Part shown: piece by piece, positions 41,231-63,406 of the stretch
How positions within the stretch are numbered: the first letter of the stretch is position 1
Layout of the letters: the number at the start of each line of letters is the position of its first letter
Assembly (NCBI RefSeq): GCF_003023845.1
Contig: NZ_PYFT01000001.1
Span: forward strand, 6,262,001-6,326,000
Direction: 5' to 3'
Length of the DNA stretch: 64,000 bases
DNA from: Adhaeribacter arboris
GTDB taxonomy: Bacteria; Bacteroidota; Bacteroidia; Cytophagales; Hymenobacteraceae
Made by a program: the position numbers and the translations under genes
The notes under the pieces: generated by a model
Databases searched by the model: none
The model's input: only the letters and a program-made list of their open reading frames with translations
Told to the model about the DNA's origin: nothing

Positions 41231-41275
41231 GTTCATTGTCCATAGTCCACAAACCATAGTTAACAGTCAATGAAC
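41231..41275. repeat. Word-type inverted repeat upstream of moaC
   Basis: GTTCATTG (41231-41238) and CAATGAAC (41268-41275) are perfect inverted words enclosing GTCCATAGTCCAC (41238-41250). That 13-mer recurs at 61890-61902 and, inverted, at 51466-51478. It is one member of the word-repeat family described in the findings. Confidence 0.55.
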
Positions 41276-41379
41276 CAAAGAATTATTGTTAAATTGTTTA
41301 GGAGGATAATTTAGCCTTCCTTTCGCAAACGTACAATGTATTACGTAAAACATACAATCAAAATAACTTTTAAACTTTC

Positions 41380-41406
41380 TAACTTTTCAACCTGCAACTT
41401 GTAACT
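41380..41406. repeat. Word-type repeat at the moaC start
   Basis: TAACTTTTCAACC (41380-41392) runs into AACCTGCAACTTGTAACT (41389-41406), six bases before the moaC ATG. The 18-mer is repeated exactly at 43314-43331, just past the moaE stop. The first 13-mer is repeated at 35798-35810, ahead of the rubredoxin fusion. Confidence 0.55.
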
Positions 41407-41411
41407 AAATA

Positions 41412-41897
41412 ATGGAACCAGAGAAAACTTTTTCGCACCTGGATGAGGCCGGAAATCCGGCCATGGTGGATGTAAGTGCGAAATCTCAAACCAAACGCAC
41501 CGCTATTGCCCAAAGTATTGTGGTTTTGGGCGATGAAATTATGAGCCATTTAAGTAACGGTGATATCCAGACTAAAAAAGGACCAGTATTTCAAACGGCT
41601 ATTATTGCCGGTACCATGGGCGCCAAGAAAACTTCAGACCTGATTCCCTTATGTCACCCGTTGGGTCTGGAAAACTGTAAATTCCAGGTTCAGGTAAATG
41701 AAGCGAACGAAGTAGTAATTCAATGCACGGCCAGCTTAACCGGTAAAACCGGGGTCGAAATGGAAGCTTTGACCGGTGCAAGTGTAGCGGCCTTAACTAT
41801 TTACGATATGTGCAAAGCTTTTTCGCACGACATTGTTATAAAAGAAACCCGATTAATCAGTAAAACCGGAGGTAAAAGTGATTTCACCAGAAAATAA
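41412..41897 (+). CDS. moaC: Cyclic pyranopterin monophosphate synthase MoaC
   Basis: It is 161 residues. It catalyses the second half of the first step of cofactor synthesis, together with MoaA. Family hallmarks are FSHLDEAGNPAMVDVSAKSQTKRTA at the start, the LIPLCHPLGLENC active-site loop, and EMEALTGASVAALTIYDMCKA with IKETRLISKTGGKS at the end. Its last 20 bases overlap the GTG start of the next gene. Confidence 0.95.
   Translation: MEPEKTFSHLDEAGNPAMVDVSAKSQTKRTAIAQSIVVLGDEIMSHLSNGDIQTKKGPVFQTAIIAGTMGAKKTSDLIPLCHPLGLENCKFQVQVNEANEVVIQCTASLTGKTGVEMEALTGASVAALTIYDMCKAFSHDIVIKETRLISKTGGKSDFTRK
41868..41872 (+). promoter_or_regulatory. Ribosome binding site deciding the GTG start of the MobA fusion
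   Basis: GGAGG at 41868-41872 lies 5 bases before GTG at 41878. Good Shine-Dalgarno sequences are rare in Bacteroidota, and no ATG in frame lies nearby, so this site supports the GTG start inside moaC. Confidence 0.6.
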
Positions 41898-43056
41898 ACC
41901 AGCGCATCAAAAGCATGTTTCTTTAAGCCGGCCTACCTTGGGGAGTTTTGGAAGAACCGAACTGGCAATCTTGGGAACCCCCTGCGGAAATATTAAAAAA
42001 CTAGCCTTTGCGATTACCCAAAATTTATCGGCAAAATTAAAAATTGCTTATGTAGATGCCGACCATAAAAGTGCGGATGCCGCAGCGAGTAATGGTCCGG
42101 ATGTAAATACTGCCTTAGCCTACGGCAGTTTTCTGGAGTATACCGATAAAATTACTTTTCAACGCCTGGATTACCGGACTAACTGGAATGAATACCAGCA
42201 GAAAGCATTTTTTCAATCAGCAGATTTAATTTTGGTAAACGGCAACCATTTTCTGGCACAAGCCCAGGTAATTGTTATTGACCCGGCAAAGCCTTTAGAG
42301 AAGAAGCTGGATAAATTAACCAATGTACAATTAATATTACTGCAGGAAGGTGTAATGAAGGTACCAGATTTTATCCAGGCGCATTTAAAGGATACAGCTC
42401 AAATACCTGTTTATTCTATCGAGGACCCGGAAAATATTACCCGTTCTATTTATAGTTATTACCTGAAATCTATTCCGCCCCTGAATGGATTGGTTTTAGC
42501 TGGAGGTAAAAGCACCCGCATGCAAAGCGACAAAGGCTTATTGCGTTATCACGAGCAAGACCAGCGCACGCACGTTTACCATATGCTAAGGTCATTTTGT
42601 GCCGAAGTGTTTATATCCTGCAATGCCGCTCAGGCAGTTGATTTAGAAGGAAGACTACCGTACCTCGAAGACCGTTTTTTGAATTTGGGACCACAAGGCG
42701 GAATTTTAACGGCCTTGCAATACAATCCTAACGCAGCCTGGTTGGCCGTAGCCTGCGATTTGCCTTTTTTAAGTAAAGAAACCCTGGATTATTTAGTACA
42801 GCACCGCGACCCAACTAAAATGGCTACTGCCTTTTATGATTCAGATGGTAAATTTCCGGAACCTTTGCTTACTATTTGGGAGCCGCGTAGCTTTCCAGCA
42901 TTGTTACAATTTCTAAGTTTAGGTTATTCCTGCCCACGAAAAGCTTTAATTAACTCCGATGTTAAGCTGTTAACTATTCCGGATACAGAAGAATTGCGTA
43001 ATGTAAATGACCAGCAAGCGTATAACGAAGCAATAACAAAGTTGCAGCCTAAATAG
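41878..43056 (+). CDS. mobA: Molybdenum cofactor guanylyltransferase MobA with N-terminal degenerate MobB-like domain
   Basis: It is 392 residues. The C-terminal domain (from ~200) is a MobA nucleotidyltransferase: LNGLVLAGGKSTRMQSDKG, LGPQGGILTAL and AVACDLPFLS. It attaches GMP to molybdopterin, needed for the bis-MGD nitrate reductase. The N-terminal ~195 residues resemble MobB P-loop proteins (ELAILGTPCGNIKKLAFAI, then KIAYVDADHKSAD), but the Walker A lysine-serine/threonine is missing, so GTP binding there is doubtful. It starts at GTG and overlaps moaC by 20 bases. Confidence 0.85.
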   Translation: MISPENKPAHQKHVSLSRPTLGSFGRTELAILGTPCGNIKKLAFAITQNLSAKLKIAYVDADHKSADAAASNGPDVNTALAYGSFLEYTDKITFQRLDYRTNWNEYQQKAFFQSADLILVNGNHFLAQAQVIVIDPAKPLEKKLDKLTNVQLILLQEGVMKVPDFIQAHLKDTAQIPVYSIEDPENITRSIYSYYLKSIPPLNGLVLAGGKSTRMQSDKGLLRYHEQDQRTHVYHMLRSFCAEVFISCNAAQAVDLEGRLPYLEDRFLNLGPQGGILTALQYNPNAAWLAVACDLPFLSKETLDYLVQHRDPTKMATAFYDSDGKFPEPLLTIWEPRSFPALLQFLSLGYSCPRKALINSDVKLLTIPDTEELRNVNDQQAYNEAITKLQPK

Positions 43057-43058
43057 AG

Positions 43059-43250
43059 ATGGCCAAGAAAAAGATATAATTTTATATCTTAAATGAGGAG
43101 AAAAATGATTACGCCTTCTGGATGTCGAAGACACCGGAAGAACGTATCTACGCGTTGGAACATCTTCGAAATCAATATTTAACCGATAGTAATGGAATTA
43201 GACAAAGACTTCAAAGAGTTCTTTCCATTACTAAACCAAAACAAGGTTGA
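43059..43250 (+). pseudogene. Remnant of a small antitoxin-like gene with an in-frame TAA
   Basis: Reading from the ATG at 43059 gives MAKKKI, a TAA stop at 43077-43079, and then an open frame to TGA at 43248. The second part, NEEKNDYAFWMSKTPEER and IYALEHLRNQYL...RLQRVLSIT, matches the pattern of small ~65-residue proteins that sit next to nucleotidyltransferase-type toxins. No toxin partner is present. The remnant could restart at the ATG at 43122 (42 residues). Family recognition is from memory only. Confidence 0.4.
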
Positions 43251-43313
43251 ATAATTTTGTAAAGTTTACAATTTGCCGGACGGCTGAAATAATTAATTCA
43301 ACTTGCAACTAAT

Positions 43314-43331
43314 AACCTGCAACTTGTAACT
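43314..43331. repeat. Word-type repeat at the moaE stop
   Basis: An exact 18-base copy of AACCTGCAACTTGTAACT, also found at the moaC start, ends 3 bases from the moaE stop. A related word AACTTGCAACTAA precedes it at 43300. Confidence 0.55.
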
Positions 43332-43333
43332 TA

Positions 43334-43744
43334 TTATGGATGCGCTGCTACCCAAACTTCCCCGTCCTCGAATATTTCTTTCTTCCAGATAGGTACGATT
43401 TCTTTTAGAGTATCAATGATAAATTCGCAAGCTTCAAAAGACGCTTTGCGGTGAGGGGTTGAAACGGCAATTACTACGGCAGCTTCGCCTATGGGCAATA
43501 CCCCAGTGCGGTGTACGATAGCTACTTTTTGTACTGGCCAGCGCGCTGACGCCATATCGGCAAGTTCCTGCATTTTTTTCACAGCCATGGACTCGTAGGC
43601 TTCAAATTCTAAATGCACAACTGTTTTTTTCTGGGTATTATTTCTAACAGTACCAATAAACACATTTATAGCCCCGGCACCATCGGCTTGTACCGCAGCT
43701 ATTATTTCCTCTGTATTTATTTGTTGGTCGGTTAAGGCAATCAT
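43334..43744 (-). CDS. moaE: Molybdopterin synthase catalytic subunit MoaE
   Basis: It is 136 residues. It uses the MoaD thiocarboxylate to build the dithiolene of molybdopterin. The pattern GAGAINVFIGTVRNNTQKKTVVHLEFEAYESMA, then VAIVHRTGVLPIGEAAVVIAVSTPHRKASFEACEFIID and PIWKKEIFEDGEVWVAAHP, is canonical and carries the conserved Lys and Arg residues. It lies on the minus strand downstream of moaD, with a 163-base gap bracketed by inverted word repeats. Confidence 0.95.
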   Translation of the reverse strand: MIALTDQQINTEEIIAAVQADGAGAINVFIGTVRNNTQKKTVVHLEFEAYESMAVKKMQELADMASARWPVQKVAIVHRTGVLPIGEAAVVIAVSTPHRKASFEACEFIIDTLKEIVPIWKKEIFEDGEVWVAAHP

Positions 43745-43760
43745 AATAGTATTGGGTATC

Positions 43761-43900
43761 AGGTAGTAAGTATCAGGAATCTGAAAGATGAATAATCAAT
43801 TTAAATTAATAAGTTGTAAATATTTAAAGCAAATAGTAGCAAGAGAACTAAGTAGTAAGAAATTATACTACTTAATCTTAATACCTGATACTTGCTACCT
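43761..43900. repeat. Inverted word repeat bracketing the moaD-moaE gap
   Basis: AGGTAGTAAGTATCAGG (43761-43777, beside the moaE start) and CCTGATACTTGCTACCT (43884-43900, beside the moaD stop) are inverted at 16 of 17 positions. In the moaDE transcript they can form a stem across the whole intercistronic gap. The 15-mer ACCTGATACTTGCTA (43883-43897) recurs in the nuoE-nuoF gap. Confidence 0.65.
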
Positions 43901-43907
43901 ACTTTCG

Positions 43908-44150
43908 TTATCCTCCACTTACAGGTGGAATCAAAGCAATTTCATCATTTGGTTTTAAAATTACTTCGGGTTTTGCATACTCATCGTTTACAGCTACTAA
44001 TACCGAATGCAATTTATTTAATCCCGGATAGGTAATTTTTAAATTCTGCATTAAGTCCTCAACCTTGGCCGATTCCGGAATATCTACAGACGTCCAAGCC
44101 TGGCCAATAATATCTTTGGTAATGCCAAACAATCGAATTTTTAATTGCAT
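43908..44150 (-). CDS. moaD: Molybdopterin synthase sulfur-carrier subunit MoaD
   Basis: It is an 80-residue ubiquitin-fold protein ending in PPVSGG, the Gly-Gly tail that is adenylated and thiocarboxylated. The LKPNDEIALIPPVSGG ending is typical of MoaD. It is divergent from moaA across ~107 bases and upstream of moaE. The activating MoeB-type enzyme is not in this window. Confidence 0.93.
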   Translation of the reverse strand: MQLKIRLFGITKDIIGQAWTSVDIPESAKVEDLMQNLKITYPGLNKLHSVLVAVNDEYAKPEVILKPNDEIALIPPVSGG

Positions 44151-44257
44151 AGATTTAAATAATAAATACTTGTTAAAGTTAACTAATTTATAATAGAATT
44201 GGTTATCTATTTACAATCTCGAAATTTTCTCTTACTTTCGGTAGTAAGCACAGGATT

Positions 44258-45265
44258 ATGACGAAATCACGCACGCAAATAGTAGATAACCACGGTCGAC
44301 CCCTCACGTATGTTCGTTTGGCGGTTACGGATCGGTGTAATTTGCGCTGCTTTTATTGCATGCCCGCCGAAGGAATTGATTACCTCCCCAAAAAACAACT
44401 GCTCACTTACGAAGAAATGGAGCGCATGCTGCAGGTGCTGGCGGGTTTAGGTATTAGCAAAGTACGCATTACGGGGGGTGAGCCATTTCTGCGGAAAGAT
44501 TTAGTTTATTTTCTGCGGCAGGTAAAAGCTATTCCGGGTATTGAGGAAATACATATTACTACTAACGGCGTACTTACCGAGCAATATATTCCGGATTTAG
44601 TAAAATTAGGCATTAACTCGGTTAACCTGAGCCTGGATACCTTAGACCGGGAGCGATTCCATAAAATTACCCGTCGCGATGAATTTGAAAAAGTGATGCA
44701 AACCTATCATGCATTGCTAGCTAATCAGATTCCGGTAAAAATTAATGCGGTTGTGATGGAAGGACAAAATATTGAAGATATTGTACCCTTGGCAGCCCTT
44801 ACCAAAGAGCATCCGGTTTCGGTTAGGTTTATTGAAGAAATGCCTTTTAATGGCGAAGGCCAGCACTATCCTAAAGTTACCTGGAATTACCGTAAAATTT
44901 TAGAGGAATTGCAAGCTGCTTTTCCAGATTTACACAAAGTTTCGGATGCGCCTCATTCTACGGCTAATCATTATTCTGTTCCGGGCTACAAAGGAAACAT
45001 TGGAGTAATTGCGGCCTTCTCCCGGACTTTTTGTGGTACCTGTAATCGCATTCGAGTAACGGCTCAAGGCGGTTTAAAAACCTGTCTTTACGGCAATGAT
45101 GTGCTGAATGTAAGAGATATTTTGCGGAGTGGTGCTTCTGAGACTGTACTTACAGATGAGTTACTGAAAGCCTTTAATAATCGGGCTAAGGATGGATACG
45201 AAGTTGAAGCGCAACGACCAATTTTATTACCTGTATTTGAATCTATGTCTATGATTGGAGGATAA
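44258..45265 (+). CDS. moaA: GTP 3',8-cyclase MoaA
   Basis: It is a 335-residue radical SAM enzyme that starts molybdopterin synthesis from GTP. The N-terminal [4Fe-4S] cluster ligands C27, C31 and C34 are in DRCNLRCFYCMP, followed by KVRITGGEPFLRKD. The C-terminal cluster has CGTC and a third Cys in GGLKTCLYG. The C-terminus is Gly-Gly (SMIGG), which in MoaA reaches into the active site. A near-consensus -7 TACTTTCG lies ~20 bases before the start codon. A terminator follows. Confidence 0.95.
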   Translation: MTKSRTQIVDNHGRPLTYVRLAVTDRCNLRCFYCMPAEGIDYLPKKQLLTYEEMERMLQVLAGLGISKVRITGGEPFLRKDLVYFLRQVKAIPGIEEIHITTNGVLTEQYIPDLVKLGINSVNLSLDTLDRERFHKITRRDEFEKVMQTYHALLANQIPVKINAVVMEGQNIEDIVPLAALTKEHPVSVRFIEEMPFNGEGQHYPKVTWNYRKILEELQAAFPDLHKVSDAPHSTANHYSVPGYKGNIGVIAAFSRTFCGTCNRIRVTAQGGLKTCLYGNDVLNVRDILRSGASETVLTDELLKAFNNRAKDGYEVEAQRPILLPVFESMSMIGG

Positions 45266-45290
45266 CTCCTTTTTCTAGCTTGAACATAAA

Positions 45291-45320
45291 AAAAGCGGCT
45301 CTGGTAACAAAGCCGCTTTT
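45291..45320. terminator. Bidirectional terminator between moaA and nuoN
   Basis: AAAAGCGGCT (45291-45300) and AGCCGCTTTT (45311-45320) form a perfect stem with A/T runs on both sides. It can end moaA on the plus strand and the nuo operon on the minus strand. Confidence 0.85.
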
Positions 45321-45338
45321 CCTTTTTTAAGGAGTATC

Positions 45339-46718
45339 TTACAATATATCGCTGAATAAACCTGGAAAGATGCCTAATACAATTGTTAGAACCGCGATAA
45401 AAATCAAGGTAAAAGTAGTAAAAGCATCTACTTCTAAACGTTCGCCGCTAGGTTCGCGCATATACATGGCAATTACTACCCGAAAATAATAATAAATACC
45501 AACCATCGACATTAAGATACCTACTACCACCAGCCACAATAAATCTTTTTCCAGAACGCTGCCAAAAATAAAGAACTTACCAAAGAAGCCTCCCGTTAAC
45601 GGAATACCTGCTAAGGAAAGCATGGAAACCGTCATAGCAAAAGCTAAAAGCGGATTGGTCCGACTTAAGCCGTTAAAAGCAGCATAACTTTCATCGCCTT
45701 CTCGCTGGTCGGAAACAATCTTTAAAATTCCGAAGGCGGCTACAGTTGCTACTGAGTAAGCCAGAGAATAAAAGAAAATGGCATTTTCCGAACGGCTGTT
45801 TAAAGCTAGCAGAGCCAACATCAGATAGCCCGCATGGGAAATACTTGAATAAGCCATCATCCGCTTAAAAGAATCTTGCGCAGCGGCGGCAATATTACCT
45901 ATCACTAAGGTAATAACCGTCATGGCTACCAAGGTAGGGAACCAGAATGAATAAGCGCCAGCAAAAGAAACAGAAAGTAATTTGTAAAAGGCCGCAAATC
46001 CCGCCACTTTTACTACCGTCGACATAAAACCGGTAAATATGGCTGGCGTACCTTCGTATACATCTGGGGTCCAGAAGTGAAAAGGAGCGGCAGACACCTT
46101 AAACGAAATGCCAATTAAAACCAATAACAACCCCAATCCTAGCATGGGCGACATATCAGTAGTTCCGGTATTAGCAGCTGCGCTAATTTCAGTAATATAA
46201 AAGGTACCGGTTGCGCCGTAAATTAAAGCTATACCAAAAAGTAAAATTCCGGTAGTAAACGAACCCATTAAAAAATATTTTAAAGCAGCTTCGTTGGAGC
46301 GTAAGCTTCGTTTTTCACTTCCTGCCAGCACATACATGCTTATGGATAAAATTTCTATTCCGATAAATAGCATCAGCATGTTTTCATAGGCAACCATCAT
46401 TACAGCCCCAACCAACGAGAACAATATTAAGGCAAAATATTCTGCTAGATTATCATCATTTAACCGGATATAACGAGTAGAAAAAGGTAAAATAAGGAGG
46501 CTGGTTAATACTACCACGCTGGTAAAAGCTACCGCAAAATTATCTACGGTAAGCATATTGTTAAAATAACTTTCGGTTTGGTTCCAATCCGCAAGATTTG
46601 CGCCAAGTACAATTATCAGGAACAATAACGCCAATGGCAAGAGAATCCGATTAGATTTCAGAAAACCCAGAAAGAGGTTTAAAATGCCGAAAGAAGTAAG
46701 TAAAATAATGGATACCAT
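45339..46718 (-). CDS. nuoN: NADH-quinone oxidoreductase subunit N
   Basis: It is 459 residues from the ATG at 46718 (MVSIILLTSFGILNLFLGFL). An ATG at 46745 would add 9 residues, but that stretch is made of intergenic word repeats, so I prefer the inner start. It is an antiporter-like proton-pumping membrane subunit with about 14 helices; the conserved region ISFKVSAAPFHFWTPDVYEGTPAIFTGFMSTVVK carries the key charged residues. It is the last gene of the nuo operon, just before the terminator. Confidence 0.93.
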   Translation of the reverse strand: MVSIILLTSFGILNLFLGFLKSNRILLPLALLFLIIVLGANLADWNQTESYFNNMLTVDNFAVAFTSVVVLTSLLILPFSTRYIRLNDDNLAEYFALILFSLVGAVMMVAYENMLMLFIGIEILSISMYVLAGSEKRSLRSNEAALKYFLMGSFTTGILLFGIALIYGATGTFYITEISAAANTGTTDMSPMLGLGLLLVLIGISFKVSAAPFHFWTPDVYEGTPAIFTGFMSTVVKVAGFAAFYKLLSVSFAGAYSFWFPTLVAMTVITLVIGNIAAAAQDSFKRMMAYSSISHAGYLMLALLALNSRSENAIFFYSLAYSVATVAAFGILKIVSDQREGDESYAAFNGLSRTNPLLAFAMTVSMLSLAGIPLTGGFFGKFFIFGSVLEKDLLWLVVVGILMSMVGIYYYFRVVIAMYMREPSGERLEVDAFTTFTLIFIAVLTIVLGIFPGLFSDIL

Positions 46719-46744
46719 ATTGTAGTTGCTATTAGCATTTAGCA

Positions 46745-46817
46745 TTTACCATTTATCAACTTCCATTTACCAATCATTATTTTTGTGATTTCTCAATAAT
46801 TGACAAATGGTAAATGG
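46745..46817. repeat. Inverted word repeat in the nuoM-nuoN gap
   Basis: CCATTTACCA (46763-46772) pairs with TGGTAAATGG (46808-46817), and ACCATTTATCAA (46749-46760) pairs with TTGACAAATGGT (46800-46811) at 11 of 12. The words also run into the upstream nuoN start candidate (AGCATTTAGCATTTACC). Confidence 0.6.
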
Positions 46818-46835
46818 TACCTGGTAATTGTATAA

Positions 46836-48284
46836 CTATCTATTTATAATATTTAATAACTGATTAATGGACGGTTCGGAAATACTTAGGAACGTGTTAG
46901 GGTGTAAACCAATCCAGAAAACCATTACCACCAACGGGATTAATACGGCCTTCTCCGTTCTGGTTAAATCCTTGAAATTAGCCGTTGCCGGATTTTGCTC
47001 GCCAAACATCACCCGCTGAAACATACGTAGCATATAAACGGCTCCCAAAATAATAGTTAAACCGGCAATAGCACCTAACCAGGCATTGTAATTGTAAACT
47101 CCCATCAACAATAAAAACTCGCCCACAAACCCGTTGGTTAAAGGTAAGGCCACTGTTCCGAGCAACAAAATCATGAAGTAAATAGATAAAGCCGGCGTGC
47201 TTTGGGTAATACCTCCTAAACCTTCTATATCGCGGGTATGCGTACGGCGGTAAATAATATCAATAATGAAGAATAAACCCGTAACGTTTATACCATGGCT
47301 CAGCATTTGAATCATGCCGCCTTGTAAGCCTTGCTCATTTAAGGTAAAAATACCCGCTGCAATTAAACCAACGTGCGCAATAGAAGAATAGGCTAATAGA
47401 CGTTTTAAATCGCGTTGGCGAATGGCAATAATAGAACCGTAAATAATGCCGATAACCGACAGTACGAGTACCAGTACATCCCATTGACTTACGCCTAGAG
47501 GCACCACCGGCAGTAACCAACGAATAACTCCATAAATCCCCATCTTAAGCATAATACCGGAAAGCAGCATAGTAGCGGGTGCAGGAGATTCAGTATACGT
47601 ATCGGGTTGCCAGGTATGAAAAGGGAATACCGGCATTTTAATAGCAAAAGCAAGAAACAAGAACCAGAATATCCAACTCTGGCTGCTCGCATCCAGGTTT
47701 AATTGGTAAAAAGCATTGATGTCGGAGGTGTGATTACCTGGAGTTTGAAAGTACAGGTAAATAAAACCAACCAACATAAACAGCGAGCCAATAATGGTGT
47801 ACAAGAAAAACTTAAACGTTATGGCAATCCGTCGCTCGCCACCCCAAACAGCCGCAATAAAGTAAATCGGAATTAAAGCTACTTCCCAGAAAAAGTAAAA
47901 TAAGAAGGCATCAAATGAAACAAACACCCCAATCAACCCAGTCTGCATGAGTAAAATTAGTGCGTAAAAAGCCGTTGGGTTCTTATATGAATGTGGGAAT
48001 GAGGCTAGGATAATGAGTGGCACCAAAAAGGTAGTCAGAAAAACCATGAGCAAACTGATACCATCCATGCCGATGCTAAACGTAATCCCCACCGATGGAA
48101 TCCAGTCTTTAACTAAAGTAAATTGGGGAGCCACCGAAGGTTCAAACTGCACCATGGCATAAAGTGCCAATAAAAACTCCAGAATGGCAGCACCGAAAGC
48201 GAATTTTTTGGCCGTGTTACCTTTTAAAAACAAAACCAACAAGGCCGCCGCCGCGGGCCAGAAAAGTAATAAAGCTGTTACCAT
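46836..48284 (-). CDS. nuoM: NADH-quinone oxidoreductase subunit M
   Basis: It is a 482-residue antiporter-like proton-pumping subunit of the complex I membrane arm. Conserved elements are LVKDWIPSVGITFSIGMDGISLLMV at the start, FFWEVALIPIYFIAAVWGG with the helix-5 Glu, and FAIKMPVFPFHTWQPDTYTESPAPATMLLSGIMLKMG with the key Lys. It starts 10 bases after nuoL, so the two are tightly coupled. Confidence 0.95.
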   Translation of the reverse strand: MVTALLLFWPAAAALLVLFLKGNTAKKFAFGAAILEFLLALYAMVQFEPSVAPQFTLVKDWIPSVGITFSIGMDGISLLMVFLTTFLVPLIILASFPHSYKNPTAFYALILLMQTGLIGVFVSFDAFLFYFFWEVALIPIYFIAAVWGGERRIAITFKFFLYTIIGSLFMLVGFIYLYFQTPGNHTSDINAFYQLNLDASSQSWIFWFLFLAFAIKMPVFPFHTWQPDTYTESPAPATMLLSGIMLKMGIYGVIRWLLPVVPLGVSQWDVLVLVLSVIGIIYGSIIAIRQRDLKRLLAYSSIAHVGLIAAGIFTLNEQGLQGGMIQMLSHGINVTGLFFIIDIIYRRTHTRDIEGLGGITQSTPALSIYFMILLLGTVALPLTNGFVGEFLLLMGVYNYNAWLGAIAGLTIILGAVYMLRMFQRVMFGEQNPATANFKDLTRTEKAVLIPLVVMVFWIGLHPNTFLSISEPSINQLLNIINR

Positions 48285-48294
48285 CTTTTTCTTG

Positions 48295-50868: not shown

Positions 50869-50882
50869 CTTATTATTTTAAT

Positions 50883-51395: not shown

Positions 51396-51420
51396 AATTT
51401 AGTTTGTAGTTTGTAGGCGA

Positions 51421-51494
51421 TAATCCATGGTGCGCAGACTATCGACAATAAAAATTTAGGAAACTGTGGACTATGGACTATCGTCTGTGGTCTA
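51421..51494. repeat. Word-type repeats in the nuoI-nuoJ gap
   Basis: The gap holds GTGGACTATGGAC (51466-51478), the inverted copy of the 13-mer at 41238-41250 and 61890-61902, and related words with GACTATCG. AGTTTGTAGTTTGTAGG (51401-51417) is a tandem seven-base stutter. Confidence 0.5.
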
Positions 51495-53175: not shown

Positions 53176-53181
53176 GTTGCT

Positions 53182-55775: not shown

Positions 55776-55790
55776 TTTTCTTCTTAGATT

Positions 55791-55896
55791 CAAGTATCAG
55801 GACACAAGTATCAAGACTATCAAATTCAATCTTTTATTATTCAGACTACAGTTTCAGATTCAAAATCATATAAAAAATCTGGCTACCTGATACTTG
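55791..55896. repeat. Inverted word repeat bracketing the nuoE-nuoF gap
   Basis: CAAGTATCAG (55791-55800, beside the nuoF start) and CTGATACTTG (55887-55896, beside the nuoE stop) are perfectly inverted. ACCTGATACTTGCTA (55885-55899) is identical to the word in the moaD-moaE gap 12 kb away. Confidence 0.65.
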
Positions 55897-55911
55897 CTAT
55901 CTGCTACTAAA

Positions 55912-56558: not shown

Positions 56559-57812
56559 TTAAGCATCTAACTCTCCGGCAATTACATTCATGCTACTCAG
56601 AATAACAATTGCATCCGAAAGCGAAGTGCCCACTACCATTTCAGGGTAAGCTTGGTAGTAAATAAAGCAAGGCCGCCGGAAGTGTAAGCGGTAAGGTGCT
56701 CTACCACCATCACTAATCAAGTAAAAACCTAGTTCACCGTTTCCGCCTTCTACCGAATGGTAGACTTCGCCTACGGGAGCATCAATTTCACCCATTATAA
56801 TTTTAAAATGATAGATAAGTGCCTCCATATTGCGGTACACTTCCTGCTTGGGCGGCAAGTAGTATTCCGGCGCATCGGCGTGGTAGGGTCCTTCGGGTAA
56901 ATTTTCTAGAGCTTGCCCAATAATGCGCAGACTTTGCCAGATTTCTTCGTTCCGTACTAAGAAGCGGTCGTAAGTATCGCCTTTGGTACCTACCGGAATT
57001 TCAAAATCAAAATCCTGGTAAGAAGAATACGGATTCATAACCCGTACATCGTAATCTACACCAGCAGCTCGCAGGTTTGGTCCGGTAAAACCGTAGTTTA
57101 AGGCACGTTCAGGAGTAATAGGCCCTACATCCACGGTGCGATCCATAAAAATGCGGTTCCGGTTAAACAACGATTCAAACTCACGCATTACAGCCGGAAA
57201 TTCTTTTATCCATTTACGCAATTTTTCTAAAGCAGTAGGAGAGAAATCTCTTTCCATGCCTCCAATCCGACCCATGTTAGTAGTAAGGCGAGCTCCGCAG
57301 ATTTCTTCGTAAATTTCGTATACTTTTTCCCGTTCCTGAAATACATACAAGAAGCCGGTAAAAGCCCCTGTATCTACACCCAGAATAGAGTTACAAATAA
57401 GATGATCGGTAATCCGGGCCAGCTCCATTACAATTACACGCATGTAATCGGCCCGTTTAGGCGTTTTTACCCCCAGTAATTTCTCTACTGTCATCCACCA
57501 GCCCATATTATTAATGGGAGAGGAACAATAATTTAAGCGGTCGGTAAGCGGAGTAATTTGGTAAAACGGACGGCGTTCCGCAATTTTTTCGAATGCCCGG
57601 TGAATGTAACCAATAGTGGGTACGCCCGAAACAATCTTTTCACCATCCATTTGTAATATATTCTGGAATACACCGTGCGTAGCTGGGTGAGTAGGGCCCA
57701 GGTTAAGCGTAGTTAATTCCCGTTCGTGATCTCCATAATTCTGGATAGTGCCGGAAGCATTTCCGGACAATATGCCAGTATTGGAAGAAATACTATTTTT
57801 AATATCTGCCAT
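56559..57812 (-). CDS. nuoD: NADH-quinone oxidoreductase subunit D
   Basis: It is a 417-residue, 49-kDa-type subunit derived from hydrogenase large subunits, forming the quinone site with NuoB. Conserved elements are LNLGPTHPATHGVFQNILQMDGEKI (quinone-site His), GYIHRAFEKIAERRPFYQITPLTDRLNYCSS and APVGEVYHSVEGGNGELGFYLISDGG. It is separate from nuoC, not fused. Confidence 0.95.
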   Translation of the reverse strand: MADIKNSISSNTGILSGNASGTIQNYGDHERELTTLNLGPTHPATHGVFQNILQMDGEKIVSGVPTIGYIHRAFEKIAERRPFYQITPLTDRLNYCSSPINNMGWWMTVEKLLGVKTPKRADYMRVIVMELARITDHLICNSILGVDTGAFTGFLYVFQEREKVYEIYEEICGARLTTNMGRIGGMERDFSPTALEKLRKWIKEFPAVMREFESLFNRNRIFMDRTVDVGPITPERALNYGFTGPNLRAAGVDYDVRVMNPYSSYQDFDFEIPVGTKGDTYDRFLVRNEEIWQSLRIIGQALENLPEGPYHADAPEYYLPPKQEVYRNMEALIYHFKIIMGEIDAPVGEVYHSVEGGNGELGFYLISDGGRAPYRLHFRRPCFIYYQAYPEMVVGTSLSDAIVILSSMNVIAGELDA

Positions 57813-57826
57813 ATTTATAATTGTTG

Positions 57827-57930
57827 GTTATTCGTTGTCAGAATTTAACAACCGACCTGGAACAACAAATAGCTGCTTTTAGATTACCCTGGTTACTGAA
57901 GTAAGTATTTAAATTCTAACAACAAACAAC
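57827..57930. repeat. Inverted word repeat bracketing the nuoC-nuoD gap
   Basis: The segment 57827-57847 (GTTATTCGTTGTC-AGAATTTA) pairs with 57910-57930 at 18 of 21 positions (TAAATTCTAACAACAAACAAC). The two arms abut the nuoD start and lie just before the nuoC stop. Confidence 0.6.
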
Positions 57931-57942
57931 TACTAGCCAAAT

Positions 57943-58449
57943 TTATCGTCCGAAGAAAGTGTCTACCTTGTCTTCGCGCGTGCCATCCTCTAAGGCGTAT
58001 TGTTTCCGTAGAGGATGATAATTCATGTCTTCTACATTTAAAATCCGAATCAGATTTGGATGTCCTTCAAAGATAACCCCATAAAAGTCATACGTTTCAC
58101 GCTCCATCCAATTAGCCGTAGAATATAAATTCGTTAAGGTAGGAACCCTTGGATCTTCGATCGGGAAGAATATTTTAATCCGGATTCGAACGTTGTGCAC
58201 TAAACTATGTACATGATAAACCACGCCCAGTTCTGCGTCTTGCTTTTCCGGGTAATGAACGCCGCACATAGTAGTGAGAAAATTCATTTGCATATACTCA
58301 TCGTGATACAAATATTCGAGAAGCGGAAGCAAGCTGTCGCGGGTGGTGGTAAGAGTTAATAAACCGTAAGGCTCCCAAATATCAAAAAGGGAATCGCCAA
58401 ATTTTTTAGTTAAGTTTTCGAGAAGAATCTGATTCGTAAGCGGCTCCAT
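57943..58449 (-). CDS. nuoC: NADH-quinone oxidoreductase subunit C
   Basis: It is a 168-residue, 30-kDa-type subunit. Typical segments are FLTTMCGVHYPEKQDAELGVVYHVHSL and PTLTNLYSTANWMERETYDFYGVIFEGHPNLIRIL, ending near HPLRKQYALEDGTRED. It starts 3 bases after nuoB. It supports the quinone module together with NuoD. Confidence 0.94.
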   Translation of the reverse strand: MEPLTNQILLENLTKKFGDSLFDIWEPYGLLTLTTTRDSLLPLLEYLYHDEYMQMNFLTTMCGVHYPEKQDAELGVVYHVHSLVHNVRIRIKIFFPIEDPRVPTLTNLYSTANWMERETYDFYGVIFEGHPNLIRILNVEDMNYHPLRKQYALEDGTREDKVDTFFGR

Positions 58450-58452
58450 GCG

Positions 58453-58995
58453 TTATTTGATGTTATAAGACTCTAATAAAGCCTGGTACTCCGGTGAGTT
58501 CCGGCGACGCAAGGATTCATCGCGTACCAAATCTTGAATACGCATTAAACCATCCAAAACCTGTTCAGGCCGGGGTGGACAACCTGCCACGTACACATCC
58601 ACCGGTATAATCCGGTCAATACCTTGTAATACGCTATAGGTATCAAAAATACCGCCGCTAGTAGCACAAGCTCCCATAGCTAGTACCCAGCGAGGTTCGG
58701 CCATTTGTTCGTAAACTTGTTTTACAATAGGCGCCATTTTCTTAGCAATAGTACCCATGACCATCAATAAATCCGCCTGACGCGGGGAAAAGCTAGGACG
58801 TTCGGAGCCGAATCGGGAAATATCGTAGTGCGAACCCATAGTTGCCATAAACTCAATGCCGCAGCACGAGGTAGCAAACGGCAAAGGCCACAACGAGTGG
58901 CTCCGGGCTAATCCAACTACTTTTTCTAAGGATGTGGCAAAAAAACCGGCGCCTTCATAGCCATCCGGGGCATCTACCATTTTTATATCTGCCAT
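58453..58995 (-). CDS. nuoB: NADH-quinone oxidoreductase subunit B
   Basis: It is a 180-residue PSST-type subunit carrying cluster N2. The ligands are in [12 protein letters not shown] (two adjacent Cys), MGACATSGG and [11 protein letters not shown]. It hands electrons to quinone at the interface with NuoD. Confidence 0.95.
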
Positions 58996-59021
58996 AAAAT
59001 TTCTGTTCTTGATTTAGATAC

Positions 59022-59042
59022 TTAGAACGGGTAACGTTCTAA
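59022..59042. repeat. Small hairpin in the nuoB leader
   Basis: TTAGAACG (59022-59029) and CGTTCTAA (59035-59042) form a perfect 8-bp stem with a 5-base loop in the nuoA-nuoB gap. Function unknown. Confidence 0.45.
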
Positions 59043-59088
59043 AATCCAACATTTATTAGCTTATAAAAGTTTTAACTATTTGGGATTG

Positions 59089-59469
59089 CTACTCCCACTT
59101 CAGGATACCTTTTTTAATAACGTAAAAGAAACCTATTAGCAACAACGCCATAAATACCAGCATTTGTATAAATCCATCGAAGCCAAATTCTTTGAAATTT
59201 ACCGCCCAAGGGTAAAGAAAAATGATTTCTACGTCGAATAATACAAATAATATGGCTGTCATGAAGTATTTATAAGAAATAGGTGTACGGGCATTCCCTA
59301 CCGACTCAATACCACTCTCCCAGGCGGCGTCTTTTACTTTACTGTGCCGTTTGGGGCCAATAAGGTGCGTTACCACCATCGAGAAAACAACAAATCCTAA
59401 AGCGGCGGCAAACTGAATTAATATGGGTAAGTAGTCTGAAGGTAATTGATTTACGGGGGCTGTTTCCAT
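59089..59469 (-). CDS. nuoA: NADH-quinone oxidoreductase subunit A
   Basis: It is a 126-residue, three-helix membrane subunit and the first gene of the 14-gene operon. The loop KDAAWESGIESVGNARTPISYKYFMTAILFVLFDVEIIFLYPWA is canonical, though the usual Cys of YECG is replaced by Ser (WESG). A good promoter lies ~30-60 bases upstream. Confidence 0.95.
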   Translation of the reverse strand: METAPVNQLPSDYLPILIQFAAALGFVVFSMVVTHLIGPKRHSKVKDAAWESGIESVGNARTPISYKYFMTAILFVLFDVEIIFLYPWAVNFKEFGFDGFIQMLVFMALLLIGFFYVIKKGILKWE

Positions 59470-59499
59470 TCCTTAAGGTTCCGTTTATGAAATTTGGAG

Positions 59500-59530
59500 C
59501 AAAAGTACGCATTAATTAGAAAGATTCAAA
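59500..59530 (-). promoter_or_regulatory. Bacteroidota-type promoter of the nuo operon
   Basis: On the minus strand TTTG (59530-59527), a 19-base spacer and TACTTTTG (59507-59500) match the consensus TTTG-N19-TAnnTTTG exactly. The -7 element lies 31 bases before the nuoA ATG, giving a short leader. Confidence 0.75.
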
Positions 59531-59638
59531 TAAAGCAGCATTTGTTAAGACTCCGCCTTCTAGAAAGTTTAAGAATAAAAATGACCTGTTCCGCCGGTAA
59601 ATAAAAAGCAAGAAGTATCAGGTTCATTGCAAAAATTA

Positions 59639-59673
59639 ATTTTCTTTATTCCTGAATCAGGATTAAAGAAAAT
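59639..59673. repeat. Near-perfect 35-bp palindrome upstream of the nuo promoter
   Basis: Arms 59639-59655 (ATTTTCTTTATTCCTGA) and 59657-59673 are inverted at 16 of 17 positions around a single base. It lies ~110 bases upstream of the nuo promoter and ~205 bases past the hydrolase stop, with no T-run beyond the arms. It could be an operator or a terminator for the minus-strand hydrolase's neighbourhood. The rest of 59531-59879 is AT-rich with no gene. Confidence 0.5.
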
Positions 59674-59879
59674 ATTTAAAGTAGGTAATTAGCAATAACA
59701 AGACGGATATAATTTGCTAGGGCACATTCAGGGTCTTCTGCTTTAACTATATACCCCAGAAAGAATTAAAAGGATACCTGCTCACCGATAATACTACCTA
59801 AAATAAACTCGACGAGCACAAATCAAGAGCTTACTTAATCGACAATATCAAATTATTAAGACAAGCTGTAGTAAAATTT

Positions 59880-60824
59880 TTACTTACTTACAGCAGTAGT
59901 ATTTTTTATTATATTGCTGGCTATCATCCAATTATAGAAACGCTCAAACCAATCATCCGGTGTCGTTGGATTTTTTAAACCAAAGCCATGACCGCCCTTT
60001 GGGTAAATATGCAATTCAGCGGGAATACTAAGCTGTTGCAAGGCTTGGTAAAATAAAATGCTATTGGCGGGTGGTACCACTTTATCGTCGGAGGCGTGAA
60101 TTAGAAAAGTGGGCGGAGTTTGCGCCGTAACTTGTTGCTCGTTCGAATATTCTTTTAATTTTTCCGGTGAAGCATTTTTACCGATTAAATTATCGAAAGA
60201 ACCTTGATGCACTACGCCGGGCCGACTGCTAATAACCGGATAAACTAGTATCATAAAATCTGGTCGTACTGAAACATTATCAGGATTAGGAATAACGGCT
60301 TTTTGAAAATGCGTACCGGCCGTAGAAGCCAGGTGGCCACCCGCGGAAAATCCCATAATGCCAATCCGGTTGGGGTCTACCTGCCATTCGGTTGCTCTTT
60401 TGCGTACTACCCGAATGGCTTGCTGGGCATCTTGTAAAGGAGCAATTTCGGGGTTAGTGGAGGTTTTAGCACTTGGTAAGCGGTATTTTACCACGAAAGC
60501 AGCAATACCTTTTTCATTTAGTTTCCGGGCAACATCCGAACCTTCGTGCTCGGCTGCTAATATAGAGTAACCACCTCCGGGGCATATAACCACGGCTGCA
60601 CCAGTAGCTTTTTCTTTAGAGGGTAAATAAATAGTAAGCGTAGGATTGCGGACCAGGCTGATGCGCAGAATACCATCCTTTTCTGTTTTTTCTTCGTTCG
60701 GACCGGGTTTGGCATTTGGGATATTGCCTTCGTACAAGGGTAATTCCATAGGTTTCGTTTGGGCAAGCGCCGAGCTTACATTCAGGCTGAAAAGCGCTAA
60801 CAGAAGAATAGCTAATTTTTTCAT
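59880..60824 (-). CDS. Exported alpha/beta-hydrolase (BD-FAE/acetyl-esterase-like)
   Basis: It is 314 residues from the ATG at 60824, which gives a clean signal peptide (LAILLLALFSLNVSSALAQ); an upstream ATG at 60845 adds 7 residues. The fold markers are VVICPGGGYSILAAEHEG (oxyanion region), GIMGFSAGGHLAST (nucleophile Ser in GxSxG), IHASDDKVVPP (Asp) and GGHGFGL (catalytic His). Relatives deacetylate plant polysaccharides, including acetylated xylan and glucomannan, so it could assist mannan use, although it is far from the mannan cluster. Confidence 0.85.
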   Translation of the reverse strand: MKKLAILLLALFSLNVSSALAQTKPMELPLYEGNIPNAKPGPNEEKTEKDGILRISLVRNPTLTIYLPSKEKATGAAVVICPGGGYSILAAEHEGSDVARKLNEKGIAAFVVKYRLPSAKTSTNPEIAPLQDAQQAIRVVRKRATEWQVDPNRIGIMGFSAGGHLASTAGTHFQKAVIPNPDNVSVRPDFMILVYPVISSRPGVVHQGSFDNLIGKNASPEKLKEYSNEQQVTAQTPPTFLIHASDDKVVPPANSILFYQALQQLSIPAELHIYPKGGHGFGLKNPTTPDDWFERFYNWMIASNIIKNTTAVSK

Positions 60825-61101
60825 AGAACAATCAAGAAAACACAAGATAAAGTTTCTGCTAAAACTACTGTATTTTATTTTCTTATTGTAACAATTACTG
60901 CAAGTATTACTTACTACTGTTTTGCCAGACTAGTCAGTAATGGTAGAGAATTGTAGTTACAAGAATAATATCCTACCTTGATTTACCCATATCATTTAGT
61001 GAGCAACTTTAATTATATCAAGGCTAGGAATAAATTACCTTGGTTGACTAAGCTTAAGAAAAAAGAATTATCTTCTTCTTTATAATCGAAAAAATTAAAA
61101 C

Positions 61102-61880
61102 TTACCGACGCTTAATATAATCTTCTAATTCGCGAATACTAGCATCGTAGGAAAATGCTTCATTGATGAAGTAAAAGTTGCGCCGATCGCAGGTAGCTTT
61201 ATAAGCAAATTTGGCAAATTCCAGTCGAGTATTTTCGTGTTGAAACTGCTCCAGAATCGCTTTTAAATCTTCAGCTAGAACACTATTTTGGCTCAAGGCC
61301 TGCCGGGCAATAGATTCTTTGCTACTTTCAGTGTTTCTGGCGGCCATAGTTTGCAATAAACGATCTACCTGTTGTTTTCCAGAATATCCCGGCATTGTTC
61401 GGTGGGATTCTCACGCTCTGGTTCTTCGTACCGGTTGTCCGGGTCGTATCGGTCATCATTACGCTCGTAATCGTTGTTACCATAGGGCTCGGGTTCCTGG
61501 TATCGTGGTAAAGGCGGACGCCGGTTAGGATAATTGGGCCGTAAAGGTAATTCGACTACTTTTCGTACGAATGCCTGCCGTCCATATTCCATTACTTGTA
61601 ACATAAATTCGCTTTGCCGCCCAGGTTCTATAAATATTTGGGTTCGGTGAACTAAAACACCCCGACGGCCCGGTATTCGAAATTCGGCAGTATGATAGCC
61701 ATCTGGAATGTCGTACAAGCGGACGACATTCGTTCCGCCCCGATTCACGAATCTGCCATCAAAAATAAACTGAAAGGCTTCACCTCACTTACTGAAGAAA
61801 GTGGCGGTTGCGCTCGGAAAACCAAGCACATTTTGAGTCCAGAAAAAGAGTCCGCAAAATAAAATAACCAGACGTTTCAT
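61102..61880 (-). pseudogene. DUF4476-family secreted protein broken by a TGA and a frameshift
   Basis: The gene starts at ATG 61880 with a signal peptide (MKRLVILFCGLFFWTQNVLG). The frame meets TGA at 61787-61785 right after ATATFFSK, then continues with GEAFQFIFDGRFVNRGG and the N-terminal DUF4476 beta region to 61365. The C-terminal DUF4476 helices (VDRLLQTMAARNTE ... FAKFAYKATCDRRNFYFINEAF) lie in another frame (61102-61395). At least one stop and one frameshift therefore separate parts of one protein. A Pro/Asp/Glu/Arg-rich linker lies between. It is either a decayed gene or an error-rich stretch of assembly. Confidence 0.75.
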
Positions 61881-61992
61881 ATTTATTTAGTCCATAGTCC
61901 ACGGTCGAAAGACTACAGACAGATATATCTTTTAAAGGTTTAGAAAATAATTCCCGAAGACTATACTTATATAAATAAAAGCCAATTATTAT

Positions 61993-62039
61993 GCCAATAA
62001 AAAAGCTGTTACGGGAACCGTAACAGCTTTTTTATTGGC
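61993..62039 (-). terminator. Intrinsic terminator after the PurM-like gene
   Basis: Arms 61993-62014 and 62018-62039 are perfect 22-bp inverted repeats (core AAAAAAGCTGTTACGG) with a 3-base loop and T-rich DNA on the transcript side. It begins 16 bases past the stop. Confidence 0.85.
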
Positions 62040-62054
62040 CTTTATCCACGCAAA

Positions 62055-63218
62055 CTAATAGATGAATTCGCCGTATTTACTTTGAATAGTAAGCTTATTA
62101 TTTTCGCTTGCTTCTACATGGCCGATTATCTGAGCTTCGATGTTAAAAGATTTGGCAATGGCAATTAGATCAGATGCGTAAGCTTTCTCCAGGTATATTT
62201 CTAAGCGATGCCCCATGTTAAATACCTTATACATTTCGGCCCAATCAGTCTTGCTTTCTTTTTGAATAATATGAAACAAAGGAGGTGTCTCAAACAAATT
62301 ATTTTTAATTATGTGTACCTCATCGGTAAAATGCAGCACCTTGGTTTGTCCGCCACCGCTACAATGCACCATGCCGTGAAGATTTGCCCGGTGTTGGTTA
62401 AGGATTTCTTTTACAACGGGGGCATAAGTGCGGGTAGGGGAGAGGACTAATTTACCTACGTCTAAACCCGTGTCAACAACCGGGTCAGTAAGTTTATATT
62501 TGCCGGAATAAATTAAATCTTGCGGTACGCCCGGATCAAAGCTTTCCGGGTATTTAGCCGCTAAATATTTATGAAAAACATCATGCCGGGCTGACGTTAA
62601 GCCGTTGCTGCCCATACCGCCGTTGTATTCGGTTTCGTAGGTCGCTTGCCCAAAAGAGGCAAAGCCTACAATTACATCACCCGGTTGAATAGAATGGTTA
62701 GAAATTACTTCGTCGCGGCGCATGCGGGCAGTAACCGTGCTATCTACAATTATGGTCCGTACTAAATCGCCTACATCGGCCGTTTCGCCACCAGTGCTGT
62801 AAATGCCAATACCATTATCACGAAGCATCTGCAAAATTTCTTCGGTACCGTTAATAATAGCCGCAATTACTTCGCCGGGTACCAGATTTTTGTTCCGGCC
62901 AATGGTAGATGAGAGCAAAATAGTATCGGTCGCTCCTACACACAGTAAATCATCGGTATTCATGATAATGGCGTCTTGCGCAATACCTTTCCAAACCGAT
63001 AAATCGCCGGTTTCGCGCCAGTAAAGGTAAGCCAGCGACGATTTGGTACCAGCGCCGTCGGCATGCATAATATTGCAGTAATCCGGATCGCCACCCAATA
63101 TATCCGGAATAATTTTACAGAATGCCTTTGGAAAGAGCCCTTTATCAATATTTTTAATAGCTGCGTGCACGTCTTCTTTCGAGGCCGAAACACCCCGGCG
63201 CAGATACCTGTTTTCCAT
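62055..63218 (-). CDS. purM: AIR synthase-like protein (phosphoribosylformylglycinamidine cyclo-ligase, PurM family)
   Basis: It is 387 residues. The PurM/SelD fold shows VSASKEDVHAAIKNIDKG at the start, the nucleotide-binding ADGAGTKSSLAYLYW, DAIIMNTDDLLCVGATD, YSTGGETADVGDLVRT and GDVIVGFASFGQ. The C-terminal half has LHGMVHCSGGGQTKVLHF. Bacteroidota use this slightly divergent, longer PurM in purine synthesis (FGAM to AIR with ATP). No other pur gene is adjacent. The family is secure; assignment as the housekeeping PurM is likely. Confidence 0.85.
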   Translation of the reverse strand: MENRYLRRGVSASKEDVHAAIKNIDKGLFPKAFCKIIPDILGGDPDYCNIMHADGAGTKSSLAYLYWRETGDLSVWKGIAQDAIIMNTDDLLCVGATDTILLSSTIGRNKNLVPGEVIAAIINGTEEILQMLRDNGIGIYSTGGETADVGDLVRTIIVDSTVTARMRRDEVISNHSIQPGDVIVGFASFGQATYETEYNGGMGSNGLTSARHDVFHKYLAAKYPESFDPGVPQDLIYSGKYKLTDPVVDTGLDVGKLVLSPTRTYAPVVKEILNQHRANLHGMVHCSGGGQTKVLHFTDEVHIIKNNLFETPPLFHIIQKESKTDWAEMYKVFNMGHRLEIYLEKAYASDLIAIAKSFNIEAQIIGHVEASENNKLTIQSKYGEFIY

Positions 63219-63223
63219 GATTT

Positions 63224-63251
63224 AGTTGCTAGTTGCTAGTTGCTGGTTGTT
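63224..63251. repeat. Tandem seven-base word repeat at the purM start
   Basis: TAGTTGC is repeated nearly four times (63224-63251, TAGTTGCTAGTTGCTAGTTG and on) directly before the purM ATG. An inverted relative, AACCAGTAATCAGCAACTAA (63384-63403), lies at the other end of the gap beside the OmpA stop. Confidence 0.6.
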
Positions 63252-63300
63252 AGATTTACCACGCCTGAAAAATCGTAAACGATATACAACGATGCAAAAA

Positions 63301-63332
63301 TAAGAAAGCCGCTCTAATAAGCGGCTTTCTTA
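63301..63332 (-). terminator. Intrinsic terminator after the OmpA-family gene
   Basis: TAAGAAAGCCGCT (63301-63313) pairs perfectly with AGCGGCTTTCTTA (63320-63332), loop CTAATA. It ends the OmpA-family transcript on the minus strand. TATTTTTG (63302-63295, minus) overlaps it and fits a -7 element for purM, without a clear -33. Confidence 0.8.
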
Positions 63333-63406
63333 TATTATTTCCTTTAAGATTTTTAAATATTTGTCTGAATTAACTAATATCGATCAACCAGTAATCAGCA
63401 ACTAAA

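Follow-up and report, generated by a model that had tools for sequence, protein, structure and literature searches.

Inverted heptad arrays between genes of Adhaeribacter arboris and related Bacteroidota: arm words differ between species while the arms stay complementary

Why should the spacer between two neighbouring genes end in words that are inverted copies of each other? The question is raised by a 64,000-nucleotide (nt) stretch of Adhaeribacter arboris (contig NZ_PYFT01000001.1, positions 6,262,001 to 6,326,000), referred to here as the window. A first-pass annotation, made from the letters alone, had pointed to six of its gaps, among nuo, moa and ompA-like/purM-like genes, in which a word next to one gene's stop recurs inverted next to the other gene's start. 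Such pairs are called brackets here. Their arm words differed between species while the arms stayed complementary, and at two junctions the insert itself makes the gap, gap and element being the same thing. Tentatively, and with slightly less than even confidence, brackets are regarded as an intercistronic element, present in some Bacteroidota, for which shape and not sequence is passed on: both arms would be overwritten time and again with new heptad words through slippage and fold-back copying, sister species keeping the hairpin and sharing neither arm. The element would consist of two short heptad (7-8 bp) arrays, one the inverted counterpart of the other, reaching from just after a stop codon to the next gene boundary.

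Each gap was scored by matching its first 80 nt to the reverse complement of its last 80 nt. In the nuo regions of relatives (20 regions of 20 kb each), 23 of 282 gaps reached a score of at least 12, compared with 14 of 4121 cross-paired arms and four of 282 direct matches; none of 21 divergent gaps did so, and some of the 23 were terminators or belonged to other repeat families. Stop-to-start length at the nuoB/nuoC junction could be read in 20 species, namely the window genome and 19 relatives (the two genes are not adjacent in G025). It was 2-5 nt in 14 species and 66-90 nt in the other six (G010, G011, G015, G016, G019 and G020), and all six filled junctions folded as a hairpin, either heptad or plain. 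The nuoG/nuoH junction, 6 nt long in the window, measured 43-143 nt as called in G008, G010, G011, G013, G015, G016 and G019; the lengths of G008 and of G009 (258 nt) were stretched by late start calls, as judged by eye. An insert into a tight junction leaves its arms as the ends of the new gap, and brackets therefore give the impression of sensing gene ends. Some nuo gaps of G011, G015 and G016 (L052, L058, L056) were bracketed by another repeat, GTCATGCTGAGC...GAAGCATCTC, which looks like a dispersed family of the repetitive extragenic palindrome (REP) type.

The nuoB/nuoC junction was then followed in 21 species, comprising all eight genomes of one genus and 13 of a second: G011, G016, G020 and ten stretches picked by position from 31 genomes searched (in nine of these ten the NuoB stop lay outside the view, and the gap may miss its first bases). 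In 20 of the 21 species the junction folded below all 100 shuffles (z -3.4 to -9.7), the exception being G178, where 24 of 100 shuffles folded as well. Heptad stem words were recognised by eye in 13 species and plain or GC-rich stems in seven more. The words themselves were GCTNTTN (G015, G184), GGTAGTC (G156, G023), AGTANTG (G019, G157, G160, G185), TAGGAG (G010, G155, G176) and TTAGAGC (G161, G164). Across 18 of these sequences (G178, G011 and G020 left out), identity was 0.469 at lag 7 and 0.428 at lag 14, and 0.22-0.30 at the remaining lags between 3 and 13. Among the 105 species pairs formed by the 15 species scoring at least 9, arms were switched in 83, in between in 12 and the same in 10. 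Over the nuo gaps of relatives, the 38 species pairs with orthologous brackets included 24 switched at both ends, 13 with the same words and one intermediate; three of these pairs are nuoB/nuoC and some of the brackets belong to non-heptad families. All these counts are of species pairs, not of independent events.

In relatives the two arms thus agreed on one word, also where that word was not the same from species to species. Uncompensated divergence of the arms, which the first-pass annotation had set against its own interpretation, was not the rule, and single losses did occur. The start-side word of nuoF was present in G003, G004, G006, G008, G013 and G002 but not in G001, and the nuoC/nuoD bracket of the window genome had no counterpart in G003 (score 6.0). 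Proteins of the close pair G001/G002 have a median identity of 96.5% (27 reciprocal best hits). In one gap of this pair, G001 (94 nt, score 9.5) had TTCGATT-type words and G002 (552 nt, score 15.0) had words of the GGTATCA type at each end. Other brackets were kept: the nuoC/nuoD word was alike in G001, G002, G008 and G013, the word type of moaE/moaD was retained in G003 and G004, and the nuoM/nuoN bracket had a 29-nt version of score 29 in G003. Orthologous gaps between the window genome and G003 (180 kb) or G004 (100 kb) were few, 23 and 28. Start-side arrays had a median conservation of 0.93 in close pairs (four gaps) versus 0.79 in 26 gaps lacking arrays, which is insufficient for a claim.

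Brackets and related features of the window are the following, shuffles being 1000 dinucleotide shuffles of each gap, counted when they reached the observed score:

43745-43907, moaE/moaD gap: left arm 43761..43780, word AGTATCA/GGTAGTA; right arm 43881..43900, its inverted copy; score 15.0, reached by 0/1000 shuffles
46746-46835, nuoM/nuoN gap: left arm 46746..46772, word CATTTAC, with polarity the reverse of the usual; right arm 46800..46822, GGTAAAT; 10/1000 shuffles
51396-51494, nuoI/nuoJ gap: left arm 51415..51437, GTCCATA-type word; right arm 51464..51486; score 10.5, 0/1000 shuffles
55776-55911, nuoE/nuoF gap: left arm 55791..55801, word AGTATCA, on the nuoF start side; right arm 55886..55896, on the nuoE stop side; 5/1000 shuffles
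57813-57942, nuoC/nuoD gap: left arm 57827..57848, word GTTNTTC/GTTGTTA; right arm 57909..57930; score 14.5, 0/1000 shuffles
63219-63406, ompA-like/purM-like gap: left arm 63230..63255, word AGTTGCT; right arm 63379..63404; loop with a GC-rich stem and T-run, by reading; 0/1000 shuffles
58450..58452, nuoB/nuoC junction: empty here (3 nt)
53176..53181, nuoG/nuoH junction: empty here (6 nt)
41365..41406, unpaired array made of AACTTTC/AACTTGC words, in a divergent gap and ahead of the start at 41412
41238..41250, GTCCATAGTCCAC word of a different type, at the opposite end of the divergent gap 41222-41411
43300..43331, array directly after the moaE stop in the convergent gap 43057-43333, at whose opposite end no partner arm was noted

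All six gaps that had been pointed out therefore beat their dinucleotide shuffles, and the arm pairs first reported were recovered at 43761-43777/43884-43900 (16/17), 46763-46772/46808-46817 (10/10), 55791-55800/55887-55896 (10/10) and 57827-57847/57910-57930 (18/21). So were the words said to be common to distant loci: ACCTGATACTTGCTA at 43883 and 55885 (moaDE and nuoEF), GTCCATAGTCCAC at 41238 and 61890 and inverted at 51466, and AACCTGCAACTTGTAACT at 41389 and 43314. In four other window gaps shuffles reached the score far more often: 500 of 1000 for nuoK/nuoL, 936 for nuoD/nuoE, 999 for the divergent gap 41222-41411 and 880 for 61749-62054. In that divergent gap arrays precede both starts, with two word types and no inverted match (score 6).

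Among the window proteins, NuoB, C, D, E, F, I and M, MoaD and MoaE matched NCBIfam models of the same name, with NuoC, NuoE and MoaE scoring below the curated cut-off of their best model. Pfam matches were obtained for NuoH, NuoG, NuoJ, the antiporter-type protein at the NuoN position and the OmpA-domain protein. Support for the purM assignment is weak, its 104 bits lying below the cut-off of 236. Rfam gave no match at gathering score anywhere in the window.

Brackets were next counted in a genome sample made of the window and 100 loci of 20 kb (2.064 Mb, 1577 genes). Genes were called with our own open reading frame/hexamer caller (coding fraction 0.80), so that small genes are missed in some gaps and a number of start calls come too late. 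The sample included 1106 gaps of 50-1000 bp, of which 716 were co-directional, 191 convergent and 199 divergent. A score of at least 14 was reached by 26 co-directional gaps (shuffled 0.05%, ends from other gaps 0.09%), eight convergent gaps (0% and 0.10%) and one divergent gap (0.03% and 0.05%), and direct, non-inverted matches at this score numbered one, zero and zero. Paired inverted ends were hence far above both their shuffled and their cross-paired frequency, in agreement with the first reading. That reading had placed brackets between co-directional genes; convergent gaps were bracketed too (8/191). Divergent gaps were depleted, 1/199 versus 34/907 non-divergent gaps (p = 0.008; at a score of at least 11, p = 0.0006). 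Depending on the threshold, 3.6-6.6% of co-directional gaps were bracketed, which is not the majority.

Among the 53 gaps scoring at least 12, an arm stuttered in 27 of 34 co-directional, eight of 17 convergent and both divergent gaps (background 126 of 1622 ends), which makes 27/716, 8/191 and 2/199 of all gaps. Pairs lacking stutter comprised a REPIN-like element (window 28585-28802), other plain repeats and convergent terminator-like stems; some of the plain convergent hits are probably ordinary terminators. The single strong divergent bracket, L118:16510-16875, had 60-nt arms of AGTTGAAA/AGTTGCA words and a score of 30, and a missed small gene is possible there. The co-directional gap L111:10437-10707 had 50-nt arms with a repeat like ATTACGC/GCGTAAT, which is not heptad.

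The arms were indeed built of stuttering units, as first described, although unit length was mainly seven or eight bases and not the 7-12 proposed. Four successive RGT were found 52 times at period 7 (five in the reversed control) and 40 times at period 8 (three in the control), and 0-2 times at periods 5, 6, 9, 10 and 11. The commonest skeleton was RGT followed by four or five bases, and units differed within and between arrays. Stutter arrays scoring at least 12 occupied 36 of 767 stop ends (21/521 co-directional, 15/246 convergent) and 28 of 889 start ends (23/521 co-directional, 5/368 divergent; sought in the last 60 nt of the gap), and only one of 618 mid-gap windows. Start arrays had a partner scoring at least 10.5 in 15 of 23 gaps, stop arrays in 14 of 33; origin at stops followed by copying to starts was entertained on this difference and dropped as insufficiently supported (p = 0.11). 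At L144, L146 and L151 GTCCATA arms gave way, further into the gap, to a second array of another, CATTCGA-like type, as if brackets were nested.

In co-directional gaps scoring at least 12, the stop-side arm began a median of 4 nt past the stop and the start-side arm lay a median of 18.5 nt before the start. Beyond the arms identity dropped to about 0.3 per base (25 gaps), and loops were mostly unique, 25 of 31 matching no other sampled gap. Inverted matching across gaps of at least 160 bp was found in 20 of 762 at a score of at least 14; pairing across genes reached that score in one of 887, so that the gene flanked by inverted repeats was rejected as the unit.

One rival explanation is a selected RNA hairpin: the transcript would fold across the spacer, stabilising the mRNA, shielding its ends or coupling or insulating translation, and the arms would drift while pairing is kept. 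We regard this as possible but rather unlikely. The near absence of brackets from divergent gaps (1/199 versus 34/907) and the hairpin in 20 of 21 species at nuoB/nuoC are in its favour, as is the strict terminator pattern, which occurred in none of 25 co-directional bracket loops and in 22 of 337 comparison gaps, a difference that is not significant; looser stems, for instance that of gap 63219-63406, escape this pattern. Brackets themselves are not short-looped GC-rich stems followed by a T-run, as intrinsic terminators are, their co-directional loops having a median of 86 nt. A promoter motif was present in two of 20 loops versus 64 of 337 comparison gaps, with 1.1 of 20 expected from shuffling, which is suggestive only.

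The strand tests spoke against such a hairpin. Arm mismatches of co-directional brackets scoring at least 11 (45 in the window genome, 25 in relatives) were G.U in 49 and A.C in 43 cases on the sense strand (p = 0.60), whereas imperfect terminator-like stems in 175 co-directional gaps of the window genome, taken as control, displayed 81 and 18. Folding energies of sense and antisense strands did not differ in the junction set (n=21, p = 0.94), in the genome's own brackets (n=28, p = 0.48) or in those of relatives (n=19, p = 0.11), whereas in co-directional gaps lacking a bracket the sense strand was weaker by a median of 1.3 kcal/mol (n=337, p = 0.002). Stuttered brackets were found equally often in convergent gaps (8/191 versus 27/716), where a start codon is lacking, and 14 of 20 species do without a hairpin at the homologous nuoB/nuoC junction. 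An mRNA fold bringing stop and start together, as first suggested, was accordingly unsupported, and the equal convergent frequency together with both strand tests speaks against stop-start coupling as the reason for brackets; translation coupling as their purpose was not supported.

The hairpin would thus be kept at the DNA level and not demonstrably through selection on an mRNA fold. The reading preferred here, for which we consider the chances evenly poised, is that brackets are sequence-free DNA-level hairpin inserts in which the arms undergo slippage and each can be copied anew from the other. Slippage within an arm would amplify and homogenise units of 7-8 bp, as the period and the stutter suggest. 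The nascent strand could then, during replication, fold onto the partner arm and copy it, so that one arm is rewritten after the other by quasipalindrome template switching. Observed are the paired arms, their identity in register, the period, the word switches and the strand symmetry; slippage and template switching are inferred. Inserts were distributed between co-directional and convergent genes, where they may be tolerated, and would be purged from divergent promoter regions. Template switching between the arms of inverted repeats is described as homogenising them (PMC8604942) and as able to create and maintain hairpins (PMC8794818), and in yeast it has been linked to transcription (PMC3820800). 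With recopying at the DNA level, wholesale arm change lacking any sense-strand RNA signature is what is expected.

Several observations weigh against DNA-level recopying. Template switching is known to produce spacer inversion as a by-product, and none of 86 orthologous loop pairs was inverted, a weak test as only six of the 86 aligned even directly. The same loop pairs were the ones compared for a segment in both orientations, the mark of phase-variable invertible promoters. No arm-copying event was caught in the act among the sequences compared. Slippage and copying confined to one site leave unexplained why the same words turn up at unlinked loci as well as in other Bacteroidota. Homology of the loops was weak between species with switched arms, the pairs G015/G019 (P = 0.0035) and G185/G016 (P = 0.0005) being the better ones among many. 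Because only gaps whose arms still matched entered the switch counts, half-changed states are counted too rarely; one was seen, on the nuoF side of G001 versus G002. Rapid recopying of arms would itself erase a G.U signal, and an RNA function might therefore escape the strand tests; the hairpin in 20 of 21 species at nuoB/nuoC may reflect selection for the fold.

A mobile inverted-repeat element of the REP or miniature inverted-repeat transposable element (MITE) type, mobilised by a transposase in trans and with fast-evolving ends, appears unlikely. REPs are described as inverted intergenic units that for the most part lie in co-directional and convergent gaps, usually downstream of a coding region, with families defined by a conserved core and a GTAG or CGTC tag (PMC3733652). 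Brackets resemble them in placement (34/907 versus 1/199 divergent), which supports a mobile origin, as does the existence of filled and empty sites. An exact 22-mer, GACCATAGTCCATAGTCCATAG, was also found in 11 stretches of an 84,980-species collection, from the genomes of ten records (two stretches came from one Chitinophaga bin), in a scan that may leave out records close to the window's own genome. Ten stretches were labelled Bacteroidota (Chitinophaga, Mucilaginibacter, Chryseosolibacter, Algoriphagus and unnamed bins) and one was an Omnitrophota bin. An inverted partner within 600 nt scored at least 15 in six of the 11 and 10.0 in L152, and four had none of at least 10. A universal vocabulary was nevertheless rejected, as CAACTTGCAACTTGCAAC occurred in one of 118 genomes of the phylum, that of the Adhaeribacter arboris window itself, and its reversed control in two of 118. 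These two words together indicate that the architecture extends beyond the family while single words are not universal.

Unlike REPs and REPINs, heptad brackets displayed neither a common core nor a single word, and, as stated, 25 of 31 loops matched no other sampled gap. No target duplication was recognised by eye, no dedicated test being made, and transposase families other than Y1 were not searched. No cognate Y1 transposase was flanked by heptad words: the sole Y1 match in the genome (176 aa, Pfam Y1_Tnp, 27 bits; L143:1160-2160, around G000:C1:4633078-4633263) had on both sides a different, conserved REPIN-like element of about 150 bp, with GCGAGCG stems, a GTAG-type tag and a GGTAGGCCT core. 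A REP-associated tyrosine transposase (RAYT)/REPIN system was hence rejected as the agent of the heptad words. The mobile role offered by the first-pass annotation thus comes nearer to the evidence through filled and empty sites and lacks a transposase linked to the words. An element similar to the one beside the Y1 gene lay in window gap 28585-28802 and in the orthologous gaps of G003 and G004. Other dispersed, non-heptad 14-mers were GGCCTTCTAAGGTT in 13 and GAGGCCCGCCGGCC in 10 of 1078 gaps of the genome sample.

It is very improbable that the heptad arrays after stops and those before starts are independent habits (translation enhancers, for example) that draw on few words and so merely look paired. 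In gene sense, polarity was nearly fixed, G exceeding C in 30 of 36 stop arrays and C exceeding G in 28 of 28 start arrays. The two ends of the divergent gap 41222-41411 carried different array types, a partner scoring at least 10.5 was missing from eight of 23 start-array and 19 of 33 stop-array gaps, and MacGregor describes start-side heptamers alone (PMC4679880); all this would suit independent habits. They were largely refuted by comparing arms of a gap with same-type arms of other gaps: the median score was 18.5 within gaps (33 gaps) versus 11.0 for 108 cross pairs, only 8% of which reached the own-gap score, and the cross-paired control pointed the same way. Start arrays were also rarer where no stop lies upstream (5/368 divergent versus 23/521 co-directional start ends, p = 0.011). 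Chance or composition, to which short AT-rich words and the only moderately unlikely nuoM/nuoN and nuoE/nuoF gaps (10 and 5 of 1000 shuffles) might point, is refuted by the shuffled and cross-paired controls, the across-gap matching and the nuoB/nuoC folding below shuffles.

Brackets were filed with the intergenic inverted-repeat elements, their distinguishing trait being that the hairpin is kept and not the sequence. The TAACTGA heptamers, forward direct repeats directly before starts in five Bacteroidetes (MacGregor 2015, PMC4679880), fit the start-side pattern, and tandem heptamers stood directly upstream of starts here too (23/521 co-directional start ends); the word TAACTGA itself was not searched for. 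For Flexibacter litoralis one array of seven TAACTGA-type heptamers in reverse orientation just after a stop is described, and for the sets of the main genome a single inverted repeat (PMC4679880). Those repeats are, however, direct copies of one fixed word, whereas brackets keep an inverted pair with a varying word, and the available text of PMC4679880 describes no pairing of a gap's two ends.

Quasipalindrome correction is likewise a process that equalises the arms of inverted repeats and can make stems in one step, but it is a mutation process and not an element; the cases found in the available accounts are short-armed (e.g. 5 grown to 16 bp) and do not include a site where heptad arrays replace arms of 20-30 bp again and again. 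Integron attC sites, too, place a hairpin after a stop codon, and its fold is conserved although the sequence is variable. In gene order brackets differ, the same nuo genes remaining neighbours in the relatives compared. No further named class fitting brackets was found in the open-licence PMC literature, among the matches listed.

Compensatory change in paired arms is usually taken as proof of a selected RNA structure, and here arms differed wholesale and complementarily between species with no sense-strand RNA signature. If DNA-level recopying is the right reading, these junctions would be a natural system in which to watch bacterial hairpins being made, kept and lost, and a warning for covariation-based RNA discovery. 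It would also give a lead on the stuttering words of Bacteroidota intergenic DNA.

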